Positions 4,493-21,466 of a DNA stretch of 54,905 nucleotides are shown piece by piece. Under the pieces are notes generated by a model that worked only from the letters and a program-made list of their open reading frames with translations, did not search any database and was not told the DNA's origin. Each line of letters begins with the position of its first letter. Position 1 is the first letter of the stretch. Source of the stretch: a virus. The stretch lies in the IMG/VR virus record IMGVR_UViG_3300046517_000974, positions 1 through 54,905 of that record. One strand, 5' to 3'. Made by a program: the position numbers and the translations under genes.

Positions 4493-4633
4493 ATGAGAGA
4501 CAAACGCGGGACCAAGGCCCAGATTCGGGCATGGGCAAAGCAGGGAGGGCAAAAGAGGGCCAAGACCCTCTCCCCGGAGCGCCGGCGCGAGATCGCCAAG
4601 CGGGCAGCTGAAACTCGCTGGGCGCGGGCTTGA
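4493..4633 (+). CDS. small basic helical protein, possible early regulator
   Basis: 46 residues starting MRDKRGTKAQI. Very basic, with the pattern GGQKRAKTLSPERRREIAKRAAETRW, a short helix-turn-helix-like segment that recurs in small phage regulatory proteins. The longer reading upstream has no promoter or ribosome site. The predicted transcription start coincides with this ATG and there is no Shine-Dalgarno site, so the message may be leaderless, as for lambda cI from PRM. Its stop overlaps the TTG start of the replication gene. Repressor or Cro-like function is inference only. Confidence 0.6.
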   Translation: MRDKRGTKAQIRAWAKQGGQKRAKTLSPERRREIAKRAAETRWARA

Positions 4634-5541
4634 GCGTCAAGGTGATGGGTCTCGTGTGGGACTACTACCCTGAGGGCGGCGGAGAACTCACCGTGGCGCT
4701 CAAGCTTGCTGATCACGCCTCGCACGACGGCTCGAGGATCTGGCCTGCCATCAGCACCATCGCCGATCAAACGAACCAATCCGAGCGCACCGTGCAGCGG
4801 CAGATCCAGGCGATGCTGAAGCGGGGCTGGCTCATCGAGGTCAAGAAAGGCGGTGGCGGTCCCGGTAAAACCACCATCTACCGTATCCCTGCCGGTGAGA
4901 TCCAACGACAGGCAGTGGGTATGGGCGACAAAATGTCACCCATCCAGTTAAGGGTGACACCCGAGGTCGGAAAGGGTGACATCCACGACAAAAAGGGTGA
5001 CATAGCTATGTCACCTGAACCGTCAGTAGAAGCAATCAACAGAGAACCGGCGGGCAGGGCTGCGCCCTCCCCGGTCAGCCTCGCCTTCGCTTCTTATTCT
5101 GCAGGCATCAAGGCCAAGTACGGAGCCGACTACCCGCCGAGCGCGAAGGCGAACGGCCAGCTTGCCAACGTCGTCTCTCGAGTCGGTGCCGAGTCGGTGG
5201 TGCCGGTGATCGAGTACTACCTCGGGAGCGCGAACACCTTCTACGCCAAGGTCAAGCACTCGCTCGATTACCTAGTCCGCGACTGCGAGCGGATTTATCT
5301 CGACCTGCAGCAGGCGAGTGGTGGGTCCGCGAAACCAGCAACCCACGCCGACGTCTACCTCGTGAAAGACGACAGCGCGAAGCCGCGCAGGCTGCAGGAC
5401 TATCCGGTCGGGGATCCGAAGTTGATCGCCTCGCAGGCGGTCAAGGATTACGGCGGGATGATCCAGAAGACCTCGCCGCGGTACGTCGACGTGATCCTCG
5501 CCGGCGCGCGCAGTAGGTTTTCGATCGAGGAACTTCGATGA
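4630..5541 (+). CDS. lambda O-like replication initiator
   Basis: 303 residues from TTG 4630, which overlaps the previous stop (TTGA). This start keeps the family-typical opening MSVKVMGLVWDYYP...ALKLADHA; an ATG at 4645 would cut it. A winged helix-turn-helix follows (WPAISTIADQTNQSERTVQRQIQAMLKRGWL, about 38-68), then a flexible linker (about 95-145) and a C-terminal helical domain (SPVSLAFASYSAGIKAKYG to the end). The linker-coding DNA carries iterons and a palindrome (4923-5015), as lambda O does at its origin. It likely binds these repeats and loads host replication proteins. No helicase or helicase loader is encoded nearby, so host DnaB and its loader would be used. Confidence 0.8.
   Translation: MSVKVMGLVWDYYPEGGGELTVALKLADHASHDGSRIWPAISTIADQTNQSERTVQRQIQAMLKRGWLIEVKKGGGGPGKTTIYRIPAGEIQRQAVGMGDKMSPIQLRVTPEVGKGDIHDKKGDIAMSPEPSVEAINREPAGRAAPSPVSLAFASYSAGIKAKYGADYPPSAKANGQLANVVSRVGAESVVPVIEYYLGSANTFYAKVKHSLDYLVRDCERIYLDLQQASGGSAKPATHADVYLVKDDSAKPRRLQDYPVGDPKLIASQAVKDYGGMIQKTSPRYVDVILAGARSRFSIEELR
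4923..5015. other. candidate replication origin: iterons plus 20-bp palindrome
   Basis: The octamer GGGTGACA occurs directly at 4952-4959, 4974-4981 and 4995-5002 (21-22 bp apart, two helical turns), with a one-mismatch copy at 4923-4930. It is inverted as TGTCACCC at 4934-4941 and as TGTCACC at 5009-5015. The last pair forms a perfect 20-bp dyad, GGTGACATAG/CTATGTCACC (4996-5015). It sits in the linker-coding part of the O-like gene, the same place as the lambda origin. Confidence 0.75.
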
Positions 5542-5906
5542 TCTCCGTTCGCGCTCGCCGCAGCGATCCGGAAACCTCGCACCAGGCCGCGTTCGAATTC
5601 GAGAACAAGCAGGCGAAGGCACAGCGCAGCGTCGCCACGGTGGTCGAGCTCCTGCGTCGGCTTGGGCACCTGTCGGACTTCGACCTGCGTGATGCGTGGG
5701 AGTTGGCCTGGAAGGGGAAGTGGAGTTTCACGCTGCCGAGCAAGGCGCGGCACTGGGCGCGGCAGGCCGGGCTGGTACGTCACGACGGATTCACCACGCA
5801 CGAGGGCAGGAAGGTTCGCCTGTGGACCCTCGGACGGGATGAGGATTTCCTGACGCCGCCGGAAGTATGCCCGTGCTGCGGTCAGAGAAAAAGGGGAAGC
5901 CAGTGA
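5538..5906 (+). CDS. unknown phage protein, replication region
   Basis: 122 residues with ATGA overlap to the initiator gene. Opens RRSDPETSHQAAFEFE, a motif common in small phage proteins next to replication genes, then a winged-helix-like region (ATVVELLRRLGHLSDFDLRDAWELAW, KARHWARQAGLVRHDG). Ends with CPCCGQRK, a probable zinc knuckle. DNA binding is likely; the role is unknown. Confidence 0.75.
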   Translation: MISVRARRSDPETSHQAAFEFENKQAKAQRSVATVVELLRRLGHLSDFDLRDAWELAWKGKWSFTLPSKARHWARQAGLVRHDGFTTHEGRKVRLWTLGRDEDFLTPPEVCPCCGQRKRGSQ

Positions 5907-6043
5907 GAGAAGGCCGTTCGTTCTTCTACTGCCTTGGCAAAGACGGTTTCTGTGCCGCGGAAATCTGCTCGGATAGTTTGCAGAGGTCTGCCTTCCATGC
6001 ACGTTACAACAAACTCGGGAAGATTTACTGGAGGTGGTTGTGA
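5903..6043 (+). CDS. 46-residue protein of unknown function
   Basis: GTG 5903 overlaps the preceding stop (GTGA), with AAGGGGAAG upstream as ribosome site. The protein has Tyr/Phe/Trp and two Cys (FFYCLGKDGFCAAEIC, GKIYWRWL). Its own stop overlaps the GTG of the pseB-like gene, so it is translationally linked to the sugar operon. No family recognised. Confidence 0.6.
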   Translation: MREGRSFFYCLGKDGFCAAEICSDSLQRSAFHARYNKLGKIYWRWL

Positions 6044-6996
6044 GCACCGTGCTCGGCCCGTGGGTGAGGGGCATCTTGATCACCGGCGGTACCGGGTATC
6101 TTGGCCGGGCTCTCGCCAACGCCTGTCTCTACCAGACGCAGGCCGAGCGGATTTGTATCTTCAGCCGCAACGAGTACGCCCAAGCGACGATGCGCCAGTC
6201 GATCCAAGACGCCGACAAGCGGTTGCGTTGGTTCATCGGCGACGTCAGGGACAAGGACCGGCTGCGTCGGGCGTGCGAGGGGATTGACCTCATCATCCAC
6301 GCAGCCGCTCTAAAGCGCGTCGAGGTCGGCGAATACAACCCGCGCGAGATGGTGCTGACGAACGTGAACGGCGCCCTGAACGTGATCGACGCAGCGATCG
6401 ACAACAGGGTCCCAAGAGTAATCGCCGTGTCGACAGACAAGGCTTGTGCCCCATTGAACGCCTACGGCGCGACCAAGTTGACGATGGAGAAGTTGATGCT
6501 GGCGGCGAACAACACCACCGGCGAGAGCGGCCCAATATGCTCAGTGGTGCGCTACGGGAATGTCTCCGGCTCGACCGGCAGTGTGATCCCTACTTGGCGC
6601 GAGATGATCAAGAACGGCGCGAAGTCGGTCCCGGTGACGGACCCTCGCTGCAGTCGCTACTGGATGCGCGTCGACGAGGCGGTGGAGTTGATCCTCTGGA
6701 CGGCGCAGGAGATGGAGGGTGGTGAGCTCGTGGTGCCGCTCCTACCCGCGTATCGGATCGGAGATCTCGCCGATGCCATGGGCGTTGCGGTAGAGGTTAT
6801 CGGCATCGGCGCCGGCGAGAAATTGGACGAGCAGATGGTGTCGCTCCTCGAGTCTCCTGCTTTCCGCTGGGCCGACCCGCACCCCTACATCGTCGCCGGT
6901 GGATTCGCCCGGAATATCGAGCCGAACGTGGGCGGCATCAAGACGCACATCCTGTCGGTCGAGGAACTGCGCACGCTCCTCGAGGCCCTGCCGTGA
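6040..6996 (+). CDS. pseB: PseB-like UDP-GlcNAc 4,6-dehydratase/5-epimerase
   Basis: 318 residues from GTG 6040 (GGAGG five bases upstream, GTGA overlap). Extended SDR fold: the nucleotide-binding GGTGYLG is at 16-22, then FSRNEYAQ, FIGDVRDKDRLRRA, HAAALKRVEVGEYNP and TNVNGALNVIDAAI. The catalytic cluster is STDKACAPLNAYGATK with D133, K134, Y142 and K146, matching the Asp/Lys/Tyr set of FlaA1/PseB enzymes. SVVRYGNVSGSTGSVIP follows. The family converts UDP-GlcNAc to UDP-4-keto-6-deoxy-L-AltNAc, step 1 of pseudaminic acid synthesis, in the cytoplasm. Full family length. CapD-type dehydratases are the alternative, but pseF and pseI candidates downstream favour PseB. Confidence 0.9.
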   Translation: MSTVLGPWVRGILITGGTGYLGRALANACLYQTQAERICIFSRNEYAQATMRQSIQDADKRLRWFIGDVRDKDRLRRACEGIDLIIHAAALKRVEVGEYNPREMVLTNVNGALNVIDAAIDNRVPRVIAVSTDKACAPLNAYGATKLTMEKLMLAANNTTGESGPICSVVRYGNVSGSTGSVIPTWREMIKNGAKSVPVTDPRCSRYWMRVDEAVELILWTAQEMEGGELVVPLLPAYRIGDLADAMGVAVEVIGIGAGEKLDEQMVSLLESPAFRWADPHPYIVAGGFARNIEPNVGGIKTHILSVEELRTLLEALP

Positions 6997-7127
6997 CCTA
7001 CTACGGCTGGCAGGCGATCGTCGTGAGCCTGGTGCTCCTCGCCATGGGCGCAGGATATGTGGCAGTCGCTCTGATCGGTTTCAACCGCTGGCGGGGGAAG
7101 CAAGGTTTCCCGCCGCTGGAGTTTTGA
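6993..7127 (+). CDS. 44-residue single-pass membrane protein
   Basis: GTG 6993 overlaps the pseB stop (GTGA). One strong hydrophobic segment (AIVVSLVLLAMGAGYVAVALIGF) is followed by a basic patch (NRWRGK). Likely an inner-membrane peptide with its C-terminus inside. Role unknown; co-translated within the sugar operon. Confidence 0.6.
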   Translation: MTYYGWQAIVVSLVLLAMGAGYVAVALIGFNRWRGKQGFPPLEF

Positions 7128-7128
7128 C

Positions 7129-7311
7129 GTGAACGAAACGCTTCCGAAAGAACTCCCGAACACGGCATACTACATGCAACTTGCGATGGAACTTCTCGCC
7201 GTAAACGAGTACGAGGCCGTGAAGGTGAGCAAACTCGGATGGCATCGCCTTGATCTCTGGCGTTGGAGGATTGTGTACGTCGCAGGGCTAAAACCGACGG
7301 TGACGCGGTGA
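7129..7311 (+). CDS. 60-residue protein of unknown function
   Basis: GTG 7129 starts one base after the previous stop. The N-terminal half is acidic, the C-terminal half rich in Trp and Arg (LGWHRLDLWRWRIVYVAG). Its stop overlaps the GTG of the pseC-like gene. No family recognised. Confidence 0.55.
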   Translation: MNETLPKELPNTAYYMQLAMELLAVNEYEAVKVSKLGWHRLDLWRWRIVYVAGLKPTVTR

Positions 7312-7997
7312 ACCCCTACCAGGTTGTGAAGGACTTCGAACAGGCGCTGTGCGAGTACACAGGAGCACCGCACGCGGTCACCACCATGAGTTGCACAGCG
7401 GCGTTGCTGCTCGCGGTGGCTTGGCACCTGCGAAACCAAGTGAAGATCGAGGACGGTCGGGAATGGGTCGAGTACCGCCGCACGCCGATCGAAATCCCCA
7501 AGCGCACCTACATCAGCGTGCCGATGAGCATCATCCACGCCGGCGGGCGACCGACCTTCCGCGACGAGGTCTGGCGCGGGGCCTACCAGCTGAAGCCGCT
7601 CCCGGTCTGGGACTGCGCTAGGCGCTTCACGAGCGGCATGTTCCCGCAGATGCAGTGGGATGACGCCACGACCAGAGGCCCGGCCGCCGACACGCTGCGC
7701 CGGCAGATGCTCTGCATATCCTTCCACTGGTCGAAGATCCTCGGCATTCAGCAGGGCGGCGCGATCCTGCTCGATGACCCGGAGGCCGCAGCGTGGCTGC
7801 GCCGGGCGCGCTTTGACGGGCGCACCGAGGGCGTGGCACCCAAAGACGACACCTTCGACTTCGTGGGCTGGCATTTTTATATGTCGCCAGAGATTGCGGC
7901 GGAGGGGCTGCAGCGGATTGGCTTTATTCCTAAGCACAACGCAGACCTTCCAAATGACGACTATCCAGATCTCTCTAAATATGAAATCTTTCGCTGA
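7308..7997 (+). CDS. pseC: PseC-like PLP aminotransferase, shortened DegT family
   Basis: 229 residues from GTG 7308 (GTGA overlap). DegT/DnrJ/EryC1/StrS motifs are in order: ALCEYTGAPHAVTTMSCTAALLLA, RTYISVPMSIIHAGGRPTFRD, the cofactor-site PVWDCARRF, and CISFHWSKILGIQQGGAILLDD with the PLP-binding Lys (SK). PseC transfers an amino group from Glu to the 4-keto sugar made by PseB. The protein is about 150 residues shorter than cellular PseC. About 40 residues between the PTFRD and WDCAR blocks are absent, and most of the C-terminal small domain is missing. It is either a streamlined phage form or damaged at its 3' end, where an HNH gene starts inside it. Confidence 0.72.
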   Translation: MNPYQVVKDFEQALCEYTGAPHAVTTMSCTAALLLAVAWHLRNQVKIEDGREWVEYRRTPIEIPKRTYISVPMSIIHAGGRPTFRDEVWRGAYQLKPLPVWDCARRFTSGMFPQMQWDDATTRGPAADTLRRQMLCISFHWSKILGIQQGGAILLDDPEAAAWLRRARFDGRTEGVAPKDDTFDFVGWHFYMSPEIAAEGLQRIGFIPKHNADLPNDDYPDLSKYEIFR

Positions 7998-8313
7998 TCG
8001 ATTTTGGGCGAAGGTACGAAAGGGACGAGGCTGCTGGCTTTGGCGAGCGGCGCGTCTAAACTCTCCGAGGGGCGGGCAGAGTTACGGATGCTTCCACATT
8101 GGAAGCCGTCGCACTGTTCGACGGATGGTTCCGGCGCACCGCGTATCGTGGCAACTCAAATACGGTTCAATTCCTTCGGGAAAGAAAGTGCTGCACCATT
8201 GCGACAATCCAATCTGTGTTAGGCCGAGTCACCTTTTCCTTGGTACGCAGAAGCAAAACATCGCTGACATGATTCACAAAGGTCGCGGCTGGTGGCAGAA
8301 AGTTGGACAATGA
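7981..8313 (+). CDS. HNH endonuclease (HNH_3 type) 1
   Basis: 110 residues from ATG 7981, overlapping the last 17 bases of pseC. Family pattern: FWAKVRKGRGCWLWRAA, YGCFHIG, AHRVSWQLKYGSIPSGKKVLHHCDNPICVRPSHLFLGT, NIADMIHKGRG. The HNH core has HH (72-73), CDNP and H84. Likely a mobile nicking or homing nuclease placed between pseC and the next genes. ATG 7954 is an alternative start. Its stop overlaps an ATG (8310). Confidence 0.82.
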   Translation: MKSFADRFWAKVRKGRGCWLWRAARLNSPRGGQSYGCFHIGSRRTVRRMVPAHRVSWQLKYGSIPSGKKVLHHCDNPICVRPSHLFLGTQKQNIADMIHKGRGWWQKVGQ

Positions 8314-8360
8314 ACCGCGCAGCGCGAAGGGCTGCCGCGCGGCAAACGAGGAGGAGGAAG

Positions 8361-8552
8361 ATGGCGCAGGAACTCACATCCGGGCCGATCCAAATCGGCC
8401 ACGGCCACACCGACGAGCACGTCTTCGTGCAGTTCACACGTCCGACGAACGACCTCGTCCTTTCGATTGCCCAAGCCGAGGCCTTCATCAAAGCGATGCA
8501 GGAGTCGATCCAGCGGCTGAAGGTCCACATGGAGAAAAAGGCGGGGCACTAA
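8361..8552 (+). CDS. small conserved-looking phage protein
   Basis: 63 residues from ATG 8361, preceded by a strong GAGGAGGAAG. A longer reading from ATG 8310 (80 residues, ATGA overlap with the HNH gene) adds an Arg/Ala-rich tail and is also possible. The core, VFVQFTRPTNDLVLSIAQAEAFIKAM, resembles short beta-alpha proteins common in phages. No function known. Confidence 0.65.
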   Translation: MAQELTSGPIQIGHGHTDEHVFVQFTRPTNDLVLSIAQAEAFIKAMQESIQRLKVHMEKKAGH

Positions 8553-8911
8553 TGGCTGACGAGCGCGCACAGGACCTGTATGACCCGAGAGCTCTTCAAG
8601 GTGACGGGAAGACCGAGATGGTGATCTTCGCCCATCAAGGGAAGATCATCCAGCGCTTCCAACGGCCGATGCTCTTCGTCGCCTACGAGCCGACCAACAT
8701 GGGCGAGATCGTGAATCGGATCCTCGGAGCGGTGAAGGACTCCGGCGCCGAGGTCGTGATCAACATGCCGAAGAGGAAGATCACGAAGGCGCAGCGCGAC
8801 GCCCTGATCACCAGGGCGCTGCATGTCTACCGGAGCATGGGCGAGAAGAATCGACACCCGGCCGACATTGCCAAGCACGTCGTCGACTCCGTGATCTCGG
8901 CGATCGAATGA
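8552..8911 (+). CDS. unknown phage protein
   Basis: 119 residues; ATG 8552 overlaps the previous TAA. An alpha/beta pattern with MVIFAHQGKIIQRFQRPMLFVAYEPTNMGEIVNRIL, then a basic KRKITKAQRDALITRALHVYRSM helix. No family recognised. Position within the sugar operon is the only context. Confidence 0.65.
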   Translation: MADERAQDLYDPRALQGDGKTEMVIFAHQGKIIQRFQRPMLFVAYEPTNMGEIVNRILGAVKDSGAEVVINMPKRKITKAQRDALITRALHVYRSMGEKNRHPADIAKHVVDSVISAIE

Positions 8912-9093
8912 GCCGCCGCGCGAACTGGGGAAAGACGCAGCAGGTCAGCCGCCTCAAGCGGCGGACCCTGCACGATGGTGGAGATCACGGCTGGCAACCG
9001 TCTCTCGCTTCGCAACGACGCGCCGAGAGGCTGCGCACAGCACCTGACGGAACTCCATTGAGGAGGGAGACAAAGTGGGCCGCAAGCAGCTGA
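8908..9093 (+). CDS. small basic protein, doubtful
   Basis: 61 residues with ATGA overlap to the preceding gene and 19 bases of overlap with the next. Arg/Ser/Trp-rich, no recognisable domain. The gene-dense context favours a real gene, because without it 160 bases would be empty. Confidence 0.4.
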   Translation: MSRRANWGKTQQVSRLKRRTLHDGGDHGWQPSLASQRRAERLRTAPDGTPLRRETKWAASS

Positions 9094-9707
9094 GGGTGGC
9101 GATTCTGGGGAACGGGGCCGGCGCGAGCTCGTGGCTGATGTACGACGATACCTGGACCTTCTGGGGAATGAACTCCTGCCACCGACGCATCGAGCCGCCG
9201 CAGTGGGGTTTGATGGCGAACCTGCATCGATTCTCGCACCTTGAGCGCGACTGCGCCGAGTACGTCGACTGGGACAGCAACTTCTCCAGGCGCAACCCGA
9301 AGACGCCGATGCTGGTGGTCGACAGTTGGGGCCGTCTGCTGAAGAACCATGCCATCTACCCGCGCAAGGAAATCGCCAAGATGCCGCGCGGCGAGTACCA
9401 CGCCTCGAGTTTCGACATGCTGGTCGCTTACGCGATCCTTCTGAAGGCGAAGTACATCGACATTCACGGGGCCGGATTCGCGCTCGACAGTCCCAACGAG
9501 GAGCCGATCAGCGCACGCGCGTGCCTCGAGTACTGGTGCGGCTACGCGCAGGGCTTGGGGATAAAGGTCAACGCCTACAGGAGCAAGGGCCTCTTCCGCC
9601 AATTCCACCTTGTGATGACCGATACCTACTACGGCTTCGACGACGTGCGAATGGTCGATGAACCAATGAAATTATCAGAAACAATTCGCGGTTCGCTGCC
9701 ACGATGA
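9075..9707 (+). CDS. Maf/DUF115-like Rossmann protein, possible glycan transferase
   Basis: 210 residues from GTG 9075 (GAGGAGGGAG upstream). Opens RVAILGNGAG, a nucleotide-binding-like loop, then DDTWTFWGMN, SSFDMLVAYAILLKAKYIDIHGAGFALDS and a late segment ACLEYWCGYAQGLGIKVNAYRSKGL. The order resembles DUF115/MptE-like proteins, the fold at the heart of Maf flagellin-nonulosonate transferases, and of a protein encoded at 24839-26074 here. Its gene touches pseF (ATGA overlap). I infer a role with the activated sugar, perhaps transfer or sensing; catalysis is unproven. Confidence 0.6.
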   Translation: MGRKQLRVAILGNGAGASSWLMYDDTWTFWGMNSCHRRIEPPQWGLMANLHRFSHLERDCAEYVDWDSNFSRRNPKTPMLVVDSWGRLLKNHAIYPRKEIAKMPRGEYHASSFDMLVAYAILLKAKYIDIHGAGFALDSPNEEPISARACLEYWCGYAQGLGIKVNAYRSKGLFRQFHLVMTDTYYGFDDVRMVDEPMKLSETIRGSLPR

Positions 9708-10258
9708 ACGTCTGCATCATCCCGGCGCGTGGGCAAAGCCGCAGAATTCCTCGGAAGAACATCCGCGACTTCATGGGCAAGCCGGTCATCGCTTACAGCA
9801 TCGAGGCGGCGAAGGCGAGCGGTTTGTTCGACGATGTGTGGGTGAGTACGAACGATGAAGAGATCGCGCACGCGGTTCGTCCATACGGAGCGATGGTGAT
9901 GTGGCGCAGCGAGAGGCTCTCGCAGGACGAGATAGGGACGCAGGCAGTGATGAAGGATGCGCTGCTGACGCTGGTCGACGCGAAACAGAAGCATGATCAT
10001 GCCTGCTGCATCTACCCGTGTGCGCCGATGCTCCTGCCTATCGATCTCACGACCGCGTATGGGGTCTTAATGCGTGCGAAGAGTCGCTACGTGATGATCG
10101 AGGGACTGATCTATTTCGGTCGCAGCGCCGACTTCATCGCAGGGGCACCCCTTGAAGGGAACTCGGCCGTGATGGCCGGCAGCCAGCGCTACATCGACAT
10201 CAACGTCGAGGACGATTGGAAACGGGCGGAAGAACTTTACAAGGAGATGGCGACGTGA
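9704..10258 (+). CDS. pseF: PseF/NeuA-like CMP-nonulosonate cytidylyltransferase, shortened
   Basis: 184 residues with ATGA overlap. CMP-sialate-synthetase motifs: IIPARGQSRRIPRKNIRDFMGKPVIAYSIEAA (P-loop-like CTP site, about 5-36), DDVWVSTNDEEIAH, IYPCAPMLL, and C-terminal DINVEDDWKRAEELY. It would activate the nonulosonic acid with CTP to CMP-sugar. Cellular PseF is about 230 residues; the stretch between the AP block and the DIN block is about 40 residues shorter here and lacks the usual Arg-Ser-Gln region. Activity may be altered. Confidence 0.85.
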   Translation: MNVCIIPARGQSRRIPRKNIRDFMGKPVIAYSIEAAKASGLFDDVWVSTNDEEIAHAVRPYGAMVMWRSERLSQDEIGTQAVMKDALLTLVDAKQKHDHACCIYPCAPMLLPIDLTTAYGVLMRAKSRYVMIEGLIYFGRSADFIAGAPLEGNSAVMAGSQRYIDINVEDDWKRAEELYKEMAT

Positions 10259-10869
10259 ATACCAAGCAGGAGGAGATGTGGCGTGGACACTTCGGCGACG
10301 AGTATGCGCTTCGCTCGCCTGGGAACGAACTGTCGAACCGAGGGTTCTTCACCAGCGTCCTTCGCCAGAACGAAAACAAGCGCCTCGAGCTTGGCTCGAT
10401 CGTCGAGCTCGGTGCCGGGGTGGGGAGCAACCTTCGGGCGCTGCACTGGATGTACCCTGGCGCAGAACTCGCCGCGGTCGAGCTGAACGACTCAGCGGCC
10501 GGGAAGCTTCCGGCCTACGTCGATCTGCATCTCGGCTCGATCCTCGACTGGGAGCCGACCAAGAAATACGAACTCGCCTTCACTAAGGGCGTGCTGATCC
10601 ATATCAATCCCGATCACTTGGGCATGGCCTACGAGACCCTGCACCGCGCCTCAAGCCGCTGGATCCTGATCGCCGAGTACTACAACCCCACTCCGGTCGA
10701 GGTCCAATACCGAGGGCATGAGGGGCTCCTCTTCAAGCGCGATTTCGCCGGCGAGATGCTCGATCGGCACAAGGACCTGAAGATGAAGGGCTACGGCTTC
10801 GTCTGGAAGCGCGACCCGGACTTTCCCCAGGACGACATTACCTGGTTCCTGCTGGAGAAGCAGGCATGA
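10255..10869 (+). CDS. pseudaminic-acid-biosynthesis-associated methylase
   Basis: 204 residues from GTG 10255 (GTGA overlap with pseF). Class I SAM-dependent methyltransferase: EEMWRGHFGDEYALRS, the glycine loop VELGAGVGSNL, acidic VELND, then TKGVLIHINPDHL, ILIAEYYNPTPVEVQYRGHEG, FKRDFAGEML, DPDFPQDDITWFLLEK. This series is the signature of the pseudaminic acid biosynthesis-associated methylase family, found in nonulosonate loci. It probably methylates a sugar intermediate or the finished sugar; the exact substrate is not known. Confidence 0.9.
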   Translation: MNTKQEEMWRGHFGDEYALRSPGNELSNRGFFTSVLRQNENKRLELGSIVELGAGVGSNLRALHWMYPGAELAAVELNDSAAGKLPAYVDLHLGSILDWEPTKKYELAFTKGVLIHINPDHLGMAYETLHRASSRWILIAEYYNPTPVEVQYRGHEGLLFKRDFAGEMLDRHKDLKMKGYGFVWKRDPDFPQDDITWFLLEKQA

Positions 10870-11129
10870 ACCGCCGTGGCTTCCTCGCCGGCGTACTGGC
10901 ACTGCCGGCCGCGCCGCTGCTCGCCGCACTGCCTAAGCCGGCGCTCTATGGACAATCGGCGATCGCGGAAGCGATGCGCGACTTGCTGCTCCTACAGGCT
11001 GAGAGAATCGTCAACCCGCCAGTGATCATGATGCCTACGCCAGACGGAATGCAGTTTTATTCGCTGCAATTCATCGAGGAACGCGATGGGCGGCACGCGG
11101 TTATCTCAAGATTGAGTGGTGGCCTGTGA
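10866..11129 (+). CDS. small exported protein with twin-arginine-like signal
   Basis: 87 residues, ATGA overlap. The N-terminus MNRRGFLAGVLALPAAPLLAALP is a classic n/h/c signal with RRGFLAG, close to the Tat consensus; signal peptidase I cleavage is likely after residue 20-21. The mature part is about 65 residues with no recognised domain. Exported small phage proteins often change the cell envelope, which would fit the surface-sugar context, but that is inference. Confidence 0.68.
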   Translation: MNRRGFLAGVLALPAAPLLAALPKPALYGQSAIAEAMRDLLLLQAERIVNPPVIMMPTPDGMQFYSLQFIEERDGRHAVISRLSGGL

Positions 11130-12244
11130 TCCGCTGCAAATTGTGCGTTATCCCAGACACGCGCCCCGACACCGCCTTCGTCGACGGGGTGTGCGCAGCC
11201 TGCATCGCCTACGCGAAGCGGCCGCAGATCGACTGGGAAGCGCGCCGCGGTGAACTCGTGGCGCTGGTCGAAAGGATGAAGGACTACGCCAAGAGCCACA
11301 ACAACCCGTTCGACTGCATCGTCCCGAGCTCTGGCGGGAAGGACAGCACCTATCAGGTACTGACGTTGCTGGAGCTCGGCGCGCGGCCACTCGCGGTCAC
11401 TGCATCGACCTGCCACCTCACTCCGATCGGGCGCGAGAACATCGAGAACCTGAAACGCTACGTGACGACGATGGAAGTGAGCCCTCCGCGCATGGCGCGC
11501 GCAACGCTGAATCGGATCGGCCTCACCCACGTCGGCGACATCAGTTGGCCAGAGCACGTCAGCATCTTCACCACGCCGTTCAAGATCGCAATCGCTCTCA
11601 GGATCCCGTTCATCTTCTACGGCGAGAACCCGCAGAATCAATACGGCGGTCCTCTCGAGGAGCAGGAAGCGCGCATTATGACCAAGCGCTGGGTCTCGGA
11701 ATTCGGCGGCTTCCTTGGACTCCGCGCGCCTGATCTCGTTGGTGTCGAAGGACTGACCGAGAACAACATGGCCGATTACATTCAGCCCGACTGGGCCGAG
11801 GGAGTGAAGCTTGGTCTCGAGGCGCATTTCCTTGGGCAGTACATTCCGTGGGATTCCCAACACAACGCCGTGACCGCGGCGAACGCCGGGATGAAGTGCC
11901 AACTGCCGACCGCTGCAAACCTCTGGGCCTGCGAGAACTTGGACAACGCCCAGACCGGGATCCACGATCATTTCATGTACCGCAAGTATGGCTTCGGCCG
12001 TGGCGCCGCTCAGGCGAGCGTCGATGTCCGAGTAGGTCGATTGACGCGCTCCCAGGCGCTCGACTTCGTCGATAGCTGCGACGGAATGTTCCCTGAGCGC
12101 TACGCCGGCGTACACTTTCATGATGTGCTGAAGGGGATTGGCATGAAGGAGGAGGCCTTCTGGGACACTGTCGATCAGTTCACGAACTGGAAACTTTTCA
12201 AACCGTTCAATGGTGACGGTTATCGTCCGGAACTAAAGGCATGA
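11126..12244 (+). CDS. N-acetyl-sugar amidotransferase (PseA/WbpG family)
   Basis: 372 residues from GTG 11126 (GTGA overlap). Zinc-binding C4xxC7 and C23xxC26, then the PP-loop ATP-binding PSSGGKDSTYQ (SGGKDS 69-74) of adenylating amidotransferases, a central NPQNQYGGP segment and a C-terminal helical region. The family converts an acetamido group on a nonulosonate or uronate precursor to acetamidino using ammonia, usually supplied by a HisH/HisF-type pair. A HisF-like gene lies at 17194; no HisH is seen. In C. jejuni the PseA relative makes Pse5Ac7Am. Full family length. Confidence 0.9.
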   Translation: MIRCKLCVIPDTRPDTAFVDGVCAACIAYAKRPQIDWEARRGELVALVERMKDYAKSHNNPFDCIVPSSGGKDSTYQVLTLLELGARPLAVTASTCHLTPIGRENIENLKRYVTTMEVSPPRMARATLNRIGLTHVGDISWPEHVSIFTTPFKIAIALRIPFIFYGENPQNQYGGPLEEQEARIMTKRWVSEFGGFLGLRAPDLVGVEGLTENNMADYIQPDWAEGVKLGLEAHFLGQYIPWDSQHNAVTAANAGMKCQLPTAANLWACENLDNAQTGIHDHFMYRKYGFGRGAAQASVDVRVGRLTRSQALDFVDSCDGMFPERYAGVHFHDVLKGIGMKEEAFWDTVDQFTNWKLFKPFNGDGYRPELKA

Positions 12245-21002: not shown

Positions 21003-21466
21003 TGGCGGGAAGAAACGGCGGGAAGCGCGCTGGCGCCGGGCGAAAGCCTGGCGACGGACTATTCGTCCCGACCGATGAGCAGCGGCGCCTGGTCACCATC
21101 GCTTCTGGGGTGATCGGTGCTCCGGAGGACAAGATCCGGCTCCTGGTTATCAACCCGGAGACGAACGAGCCGATCGCGCCGATGACGCTCAGGAAGCACT
21201 TCCGCGGGGAGTTGGACGAGGGGCTTCGGGCTGCGGATGCGCAGGTCGCCATGGGCCTTTTCAAGAACGCGACCACGGGGACCGATACCTACCCAGGAGG
21301 GAATCCGATCTCGCAGATCTTCTGGCTGAAGTGCCGGATGAGGTGGCAGCAGGACCCGTCGAAGGTGATCGAGCCGCCGCCGCTCCTTCCTGATGGGAAG
21401 GAGGACATGATGGATGTCACCCGACGGCTTGCGTTCATGCTCGCCAAGGCCGACGCTGAGACCTGA
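21002..21466 (+). CDS. putative terminase small subunit or DNA-binding packaging protein
   Basis: 154 residues from ATG 21002, overlapping the lipoprotein stop (TGATG). The basic opening GRNGGKRAGAGRKPG and a helical region with TLRKHFRGELDEGLRAADAQVAMGLFKNA and FWLKCRMRW match small proteins annotated near terminases as DNA-binding packaging subunits. TerL lies about 5 kb downstream, further than usual, so the assignment is moderate. Confidence 0.55.
   Translation: MAGRNGGKRAGAGRKPGDGLFVPTDEQRRLVTIASGVIGAPEDKIRLLVINPETNEPIAPMTLRKHFRGELDEGLRAADAQVAMGLFKNATTGTDTYPGGNPISQIFWLKCRMRWQQDPSKVIEPPPLLPDGKEDMMDVTRRLAFMLAKADAET

Follow-up and report, generated by a model that had tools for sequence, protein, structure and literature searches.

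A replication origin placed inside the initiator gene is the textbook arrangement of lambda. The ori of lambda and of Stx phages lies within gene O (PMC7466680, PMC5043065), and the winged-helix Rep proteins of plasmids grip their iterons and, simultaneously, one strand of repeated DUE elements (PMC4081077). Here we analysed a window of 54,905 nt, the whole stretch of DNA of a virus record with terminase, head-tail adaptor, major head and tail genes, and found a repeat array within the coding sequence of an initiator gene (Table 1). Judged from its sequence, the array is very probably the site at which the phage starts its own replication, set inside the initiator gene in the manner of lambda.

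Table 1. Coordinates of the initiator gene and of the elements of the putative origin in the window.
Feature	Position	Strand	Remarks
Initiator gene, 303 aa, TTG start	4630..5541	+	N-terminal winged helix (HTH_36), low-confidence linker, helical C-terminal part
Iteron copy 1, GGGCGACA	4923..4930	+	one mismatch
Iteron copy 2, inverted GGGTGACA	4934..4941	-	exact
Iteron copy 3, GGGTGACA	4952..4959	+	exact
Iteron copy 4, GGGTGACA	4974..4981	+	exact; 22 bp after copy 3
Iteron copy 5, GGGTGACA	4995..5002	+	exact; 21 bp after copy 4; left arm of dyad
Perfect 20-bp palindrome, GGTGACATAGCTATGTCACC	4996..5015		closes the array; encodes GDIAMSP
Least stable 40 bp of the gene	5006..5045		proposed unwinding element; lowest 0.4% of the window
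Iteron copy 6, inverted AGGTGACA	5009..5016	-	one mismatch as 8-mer, 7-mer core exact; right arm of dyad
Second repeat, AACCGTCA	5018..5025	+	exact; 2 nt past the last iteron core, an offset that recurs in relatives
Degenerate second repeat, AAGCAATCA	5030..5038	+	by eye
Degenerate second repeat, AACCGGCG	5045..5052	+	by eye

The N-terminus of the encoded protein matches Pfam HTH_36 (4e-8, 33.3 bits against a curated cut-off of 25), and its PHROG matches fall in several 'replication initiation O-like' or primosomal families. No match to the Pfam lambda-O family was reported for the window initiator, only HTH_36 and other HTH families. The earlier note on this DNA, which had placed the repeats in the linker of a lambda O-like gene, was right about the linker and about the O-like assignment in PHROG terms, but the domain is HTH_36 and not Pfam lambda-O. 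In the structure model, residues 1-90, the winged helix, are confident and residues ~91-150, presumably disordered, reach ~46-56 pLDDT per block; it is the codons of this low-confidence stretch that carry the repeats. The model contains a single confident winged helix, unlike a two-winged-helix Rep protein. Neither sequence nor fold searches against solved structures went beyond generic winged helices, including the DnaD N-terminal domain and TubR; most fold matches are transcription regulators, and they give no clue to function other than the fold itself. The neighbours on the opposite strand are a NinG/Rap-like nuclease, a YqaJ exonuclease and an Erf annealing protein, and no helicase loader was recognised beside the gene, the next ORF (5538-5906) being without informative match in Pfam and PHROG. 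The window also holds a sugar-biosynthesis cassette at 6034-12244, with a nucleotide-sugar epimerase/dehydratase (6034-6996), a DegT-type aminotransferase (7263-7997) and a CTP_transf_3 cytidylyltransferase (9704-10258), whose make-up suggests a nonulosonic-acid-like pathway.

The array comprises, between 4923 and 5016, six copies of the 7-mer core GGTGACA or its complement, of which five are exact and one has a mismatch, and the whole 54.9 kb contains one further exact GGGTGACA, at 21415. The earlier note had counted six copies in 4923-5015, one with a mismatch, had given the spacing of direct copies as 21-22 bp and had seen a perfect 20-bp dyad formed by the last pair. The six copies and the dyad are borne out by the sequence; the single mismatch holds for the 7-mer core but not for the 8-mers, of which two of six are mismatched, and the spacing holds for the three main copies but not for the mismatched first copy, 29 bp upstream. 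A lambda-like layout built on a repeat unlike that of lambda is likewise supported by GGGTGACA and its ~21-bp spacing. The end at 5015, on the other hand, was drawn too early, as the feature extends 3' to ~5052 and takes in both AACCRTCA and the low-stability stretch described below. When the codons of the window gene were shuffled synonymously, keeping the protein and the gene's codons, five GGTGACA cores were reached in 4 of 5,000 shuffles. A palindrome of at least 20 bp appeared in 47 of 1,000, and the dyad is rejected as remarkable by itself; it is weak as lone evidence in this gene because the peptide GDIAMSP favours a palindrome. The GC skew of the window changes near 4 kb and, because this change coincides with a switch of gene strand, it does not count as independent evidence.

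The significance of the dyad lies rather in its recurrence in other contigs. A scan of both collections found the exact 20-mer in 18 other viral contigs and in 7 contigs of bacterial genomes that span several phyla (by title Bowmanella, Acidobacteriaceae, Pseudomonas, Bacillota, Stutzerimonas, Ignavibacteriales and Tersicoccus), and in 25/25 contigs it lies within an HTH O-like initiator ORF; the same letters in reverse, as a control, gave no match in viral contigs. A looser scan for two copies of GGGTGACA yielded at least 120 stretches and, among the matches listed, 60 of the 119 loci added in this way have an O-like ORF; the initiator HMM was built from the window initiator's own N-terminus and widened by iteration. 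The 52 non-redundant genes listed from the looser scan contain 109 copies of GGGTGACA beyond the two used for selection, against 31±5 in codon shuffles, and neighbouring direct copies are mostly 21, 22 or 23 bp apart. Redundancy in the gene sets was removed by shared k-mers and not with a tree. Pfam HTH_36 is present in 72/72 aligned proteins, five named-phage initiators among them, and the GGTGACA arrays persist while the identity of the HTH domain to that of the window ranges from 18 to 58% (34-sequence sample). On the possible loss of the repeats in relatives, raised in the earlier note, we find that distant relatives keep the array, and that the viral contigs contain no close relative of the window initiator protein. 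Searches of bacterial genomes with HTH_36 returned chromosomal regulators mostly, together with many phage-type matches that have arrays, some of them with AACCCTCA-like variants; plasmid records came to two, with partial matches, and gave no plasmid relative. Two further kinds of dyad were seen: GGTGACA-N3-TGTCACC (offset 10) at the 5' end of the array in L004, L007, L008, L011, L063 and L077 and, by inspection, a 7-6-7, 20-bp dyad (GGGTGCA-N6-TGCACCC) with the geometry of the window palindrome, which can close GGGTGCA arrays (L158, L188, L226 and others).

Directly 3' of the last iteron, the printed arrays of relatives contain a second repeat, AACCATCA or AACCGTCA (AACCRTCA), of which the window itself has a weak version with one exact copy. 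We counted it in 72 non-redundant genes chosen solely by iterons or dyad among the matches listed. Of the 52 copies in these genes, 51 sit no more than 60 nt 3' of the last iteron, where synonymous-codon shuffles give 5.9±2.2 (maximum 14), and 30 of the 72 genes have at least one copy, compared with 5.7 in shuffles (maximum 13). The copies form a comb after the last iteron, at +2, +11 to +15, +23 to +26, +35 to +37, +46 to +48 and +57, with gaps between successive copies of mostly 10-12 nt and a period of ~11-12 bp. A reciprocal scan of viral contigs for three AACCRTCA words was carried out without protein information, its yields being lower bounds. Among the matches listed, 102 of the 146 in added loci lie in sense within O-like ORFs, and of the remaining ones many are truncated contigs with the same layout and others are simple repeats. 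Across the entire collection the mirror-image pattern turned up at just 43 loci, none of them within an O-like ORF, and among Pseudomonas genomes the triple repeat occurs in 1/149, as an unrelated tandem repeat outside O-like ORFs. Among the matches listed, 64 of 69 non-redundant genes selected by AACCRTCA have an upstream repeat array that beats all 20 shuffles, and the words of these arrays vary (GGGTGCA, GGTGACA, ACCCCCG, ACCCCTC, GGGGCCA, TAGTAAA and others). The literature searched, mostly outside subscription papers, contained no description of AACCRTCA or the repeat words, and AACCRTCA is provisionally regarded as an apparently previously undescribed element.

These data bear on the explanation that the repeats merely mirror the protein, that is, a repetitive low-complexity linker (GD.., MSP, VTP, EPS) encoded by DNA that is itself functionless. 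The repetitive linker peptides and the palindrome that some shuffles of the window gene produce agree with it, but protein-preserving synonymous shuffles fail to yield the iterons or AACCRTCA, the iterons are found in both orientations, and AACCRTCA uses all three codon frames (115/57/56 in the 69 non-redundant genes, among the matches listed). We therefore reject this explanation on the codon-shuffle and frame tests and leave it next to no probability.

Several observations were made around the second repeat. L076 has iterons and a triple AACCRTCA and no O-like ORF by HMM, being either a broken gene or a case of a different initiator family; in L160 and L186, GAACCATCAGATTTTG apparently lies within the iteron, so that array and AACCRTCA merge. 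Runs like GAGAGAGCGCGCGAG follow the AACCRTCA repeats, 45-140 nt past the last iteron, in many O-like genes (e.g. L033, L035, L085), and in the region past AACCRTCA CGCGCGAG is present in 7 O-like genes compared with 0.7 in codon shuffles.

Duplex stability was examined with nearest-neighbour energies, and in the window the low-stability stretch is one-sided, lying at the array's 3' end. In the iteron-selected genes the stability minimum falls between 0 and ~+50 nt past the last iteron, below the synonymous null (t of ~-9 to -10), and the same dip is found around the first AACCRTCA in the AACCRTCA-selected set. We also inspected twenty-two named phages that had been picked by protein similarity alone. 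In most of them the linker region contains a repeat array, and their least stable 40-mer usually begins near the 3' end of the array. An exact AACCRTCA is found there in eight (Riah, PHB09, PotUPM1, Mvi-Yong1342-1, VSN-002, PMBT6, phi2 and Va_PF430-3_p42), and by inspection others have apparent variants: AACCAGTCA in S1249, AsXd-1 and BUCT708, AACCTATCA in Y8A, GATCCRTCA in SfII, KpF5 and Kp4866-6, and AACCAGTAA in Pavtok, Parlo and LASTA. With one mismatch allowed, 40 copies of AACCRTCA are counted over the named-phage genes, where ~13 are expected. Among named phages, Bifidobacterium phage PMBT6, with nine GGTGACA cores, comes nearest to the window's iteron class.

The repeats could instead form an operator, with the initiator acting on it as the repressor of its own gene or of the early operon. 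Inverted repeats close to their own genes are frequent targets of winged-helix proteins, the dyad is operator-like, and transcription regulators dominate the fold matches. Against this, the array lies ~290 bp into the gene and not at a promoter, low-stability DNA always follows it and AACCRTCA often does, and in several named relatives the genes that adjoin the initiator are annotated as replication protein P or helicase. An operator in place of an origin is thus improbable in our judgement, although the two roles are not exclusive and can coexist.

The reading as an origin raises the question of which protein contacts which repeat. In the 69 genes selected by AACCRTCA only (among the matches listed), a recognition helix of the form SERx(V/I/A)Q is found in 14 of 31 genes with GGGTGCA or GGTGACA iterons and in 3 of 38 with other iterons (Fisher p = 0.0005), which is suggestive of the HTH domain reading the iterons; the support is only suggestive because common ancestry was left uncorrected and the pattern was chosen after looking. 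DnaA-box-like 9-mers are ~2.5-fold in excess in two sets of initiator genes (16 vs 6.6±2.5 and 11 vs 4.2±1.7), and the window has none. Perfect DnaA boxes (TTATCCACA) were noted within the initiator genes of L002, L007, L082, L120 and L254.

Taken together, the array, the dyad, the low-stability stretch and the second repeat can be read from the DNA directly, in a layout that is kept under DNA-level constraint in many phages, and we consider it likely that 4923 to ~5052 is an origin within the initiator coding sequence that works as follows. The winged helix of the initiator would bind the GGGTGACA iterons, two helical turns apart, in an array that closes in a tight inverted pair, and the resulting complex would strain the adjoining low-stability DNA. 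The strained DNA would then open at the AACCRTCA repeats, where one of the opened strands would be held, and the C-terminal part of the initiator would bring in the helicase, directly or via a loader. We infer from the layout and the constraint that the initiator binds here, that the DNA opens at AACCRTCA and that one strand is captured and a helicase recruited, and with these steps the function of both iterons and AACCRTCA.

AACCRTCA is read here as the putative unwinding element of a broad family of phage origins, and the closest tested precedent for a protein that recognises such repeats is the binding of one strand of the DUE repeats by plasmid Rep proteins (PMC4081077). In an alternative account of the same origin, AACCRTCA would be a duplex site for a separate, widely conserved factor of host or phage that helps in helicase loading, and not single-stranded DNA read by the initiator. 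The constancy of AACCRTCA while iterons and recognition helices vary fits such a factor, as does a comb of 11-12 bp, near the helical repeat; it coincides, however, with the least stable DNA and stands at the place of the plasmid DUE repeats, whose single strands are bound by winged-helix initiators (PMC4081077), and we regard the separate factor as possible but rather unlikely. A broader proposal would make AACCRTCA and its close variants AACCAGTCA, GATCCRTCA and AACCTATCA a signal for unwinding or helicase loading that phage origins of a very large group have in common, and that stays the same from one bacterial phylum to another as the adjoining iterons are exchanged; we give it about even chances. 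If true, iteron recognition would be replicon-specific and the opening step shared, like the DnaA-trio of chromosomal origins, and a second element that stays constant while iterons change would reveal which step of origin opening is common. The lambda-like in-gene layout can be traced here through many diverged initiators, and it offers a rule for finding origins in uncultivated phages, namely a repeat array in the linker of an HTH_36 gene with AACCRTCA repeats immediately after it.

In comparison with the described systems, the lambda and Stx origins, like the window, have initiator-binding repeats mid-gene (candidate sites here) followed directly by a low-stability stretch at which the duplex is expected to open, and the window has its repeats midway along the initiator gene, where the linker is encoded, with the low-stability stretch on one side. 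Lambda, however, has 18-bp iterons where the window has GGGTGACA at ~21-bp spacing, it has a purine-biased AT tract where a repeated AACCRTCA element is found here, and the initiator here belongs to HTH_36, with no Pfam lambda-O match reported. The origins of PICIs have iterons that adjoin an AT-rich putative melting site, as here, but two iteron sets flank the AT-rich region and lie 3' of rep (PMC6092414); the window lacks this pair of flanking sets, its origin being in-gene and one-sided. Iteron plasmids (RK2 oriV with 13-mers, F oriS with 8-mers; PMC4081077) share with the window a winged-helix initiator, direct iterons about two turns apart and an adjoining repeated motif in the opening region, the repeated DUE being clear in relatives and weak in the window itself, whereas the origin here lies within coding sequence. 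The DUE motifs of RK2 and F also differ from each other, whereas AACCRTCA is common to replicons with unrelated iterons and is not strongly AT-rich. What appears to be new in the window origin, as far as its sequence and those of its relatives indicate, is the class of its iterons; its taxonomic spread is wide.
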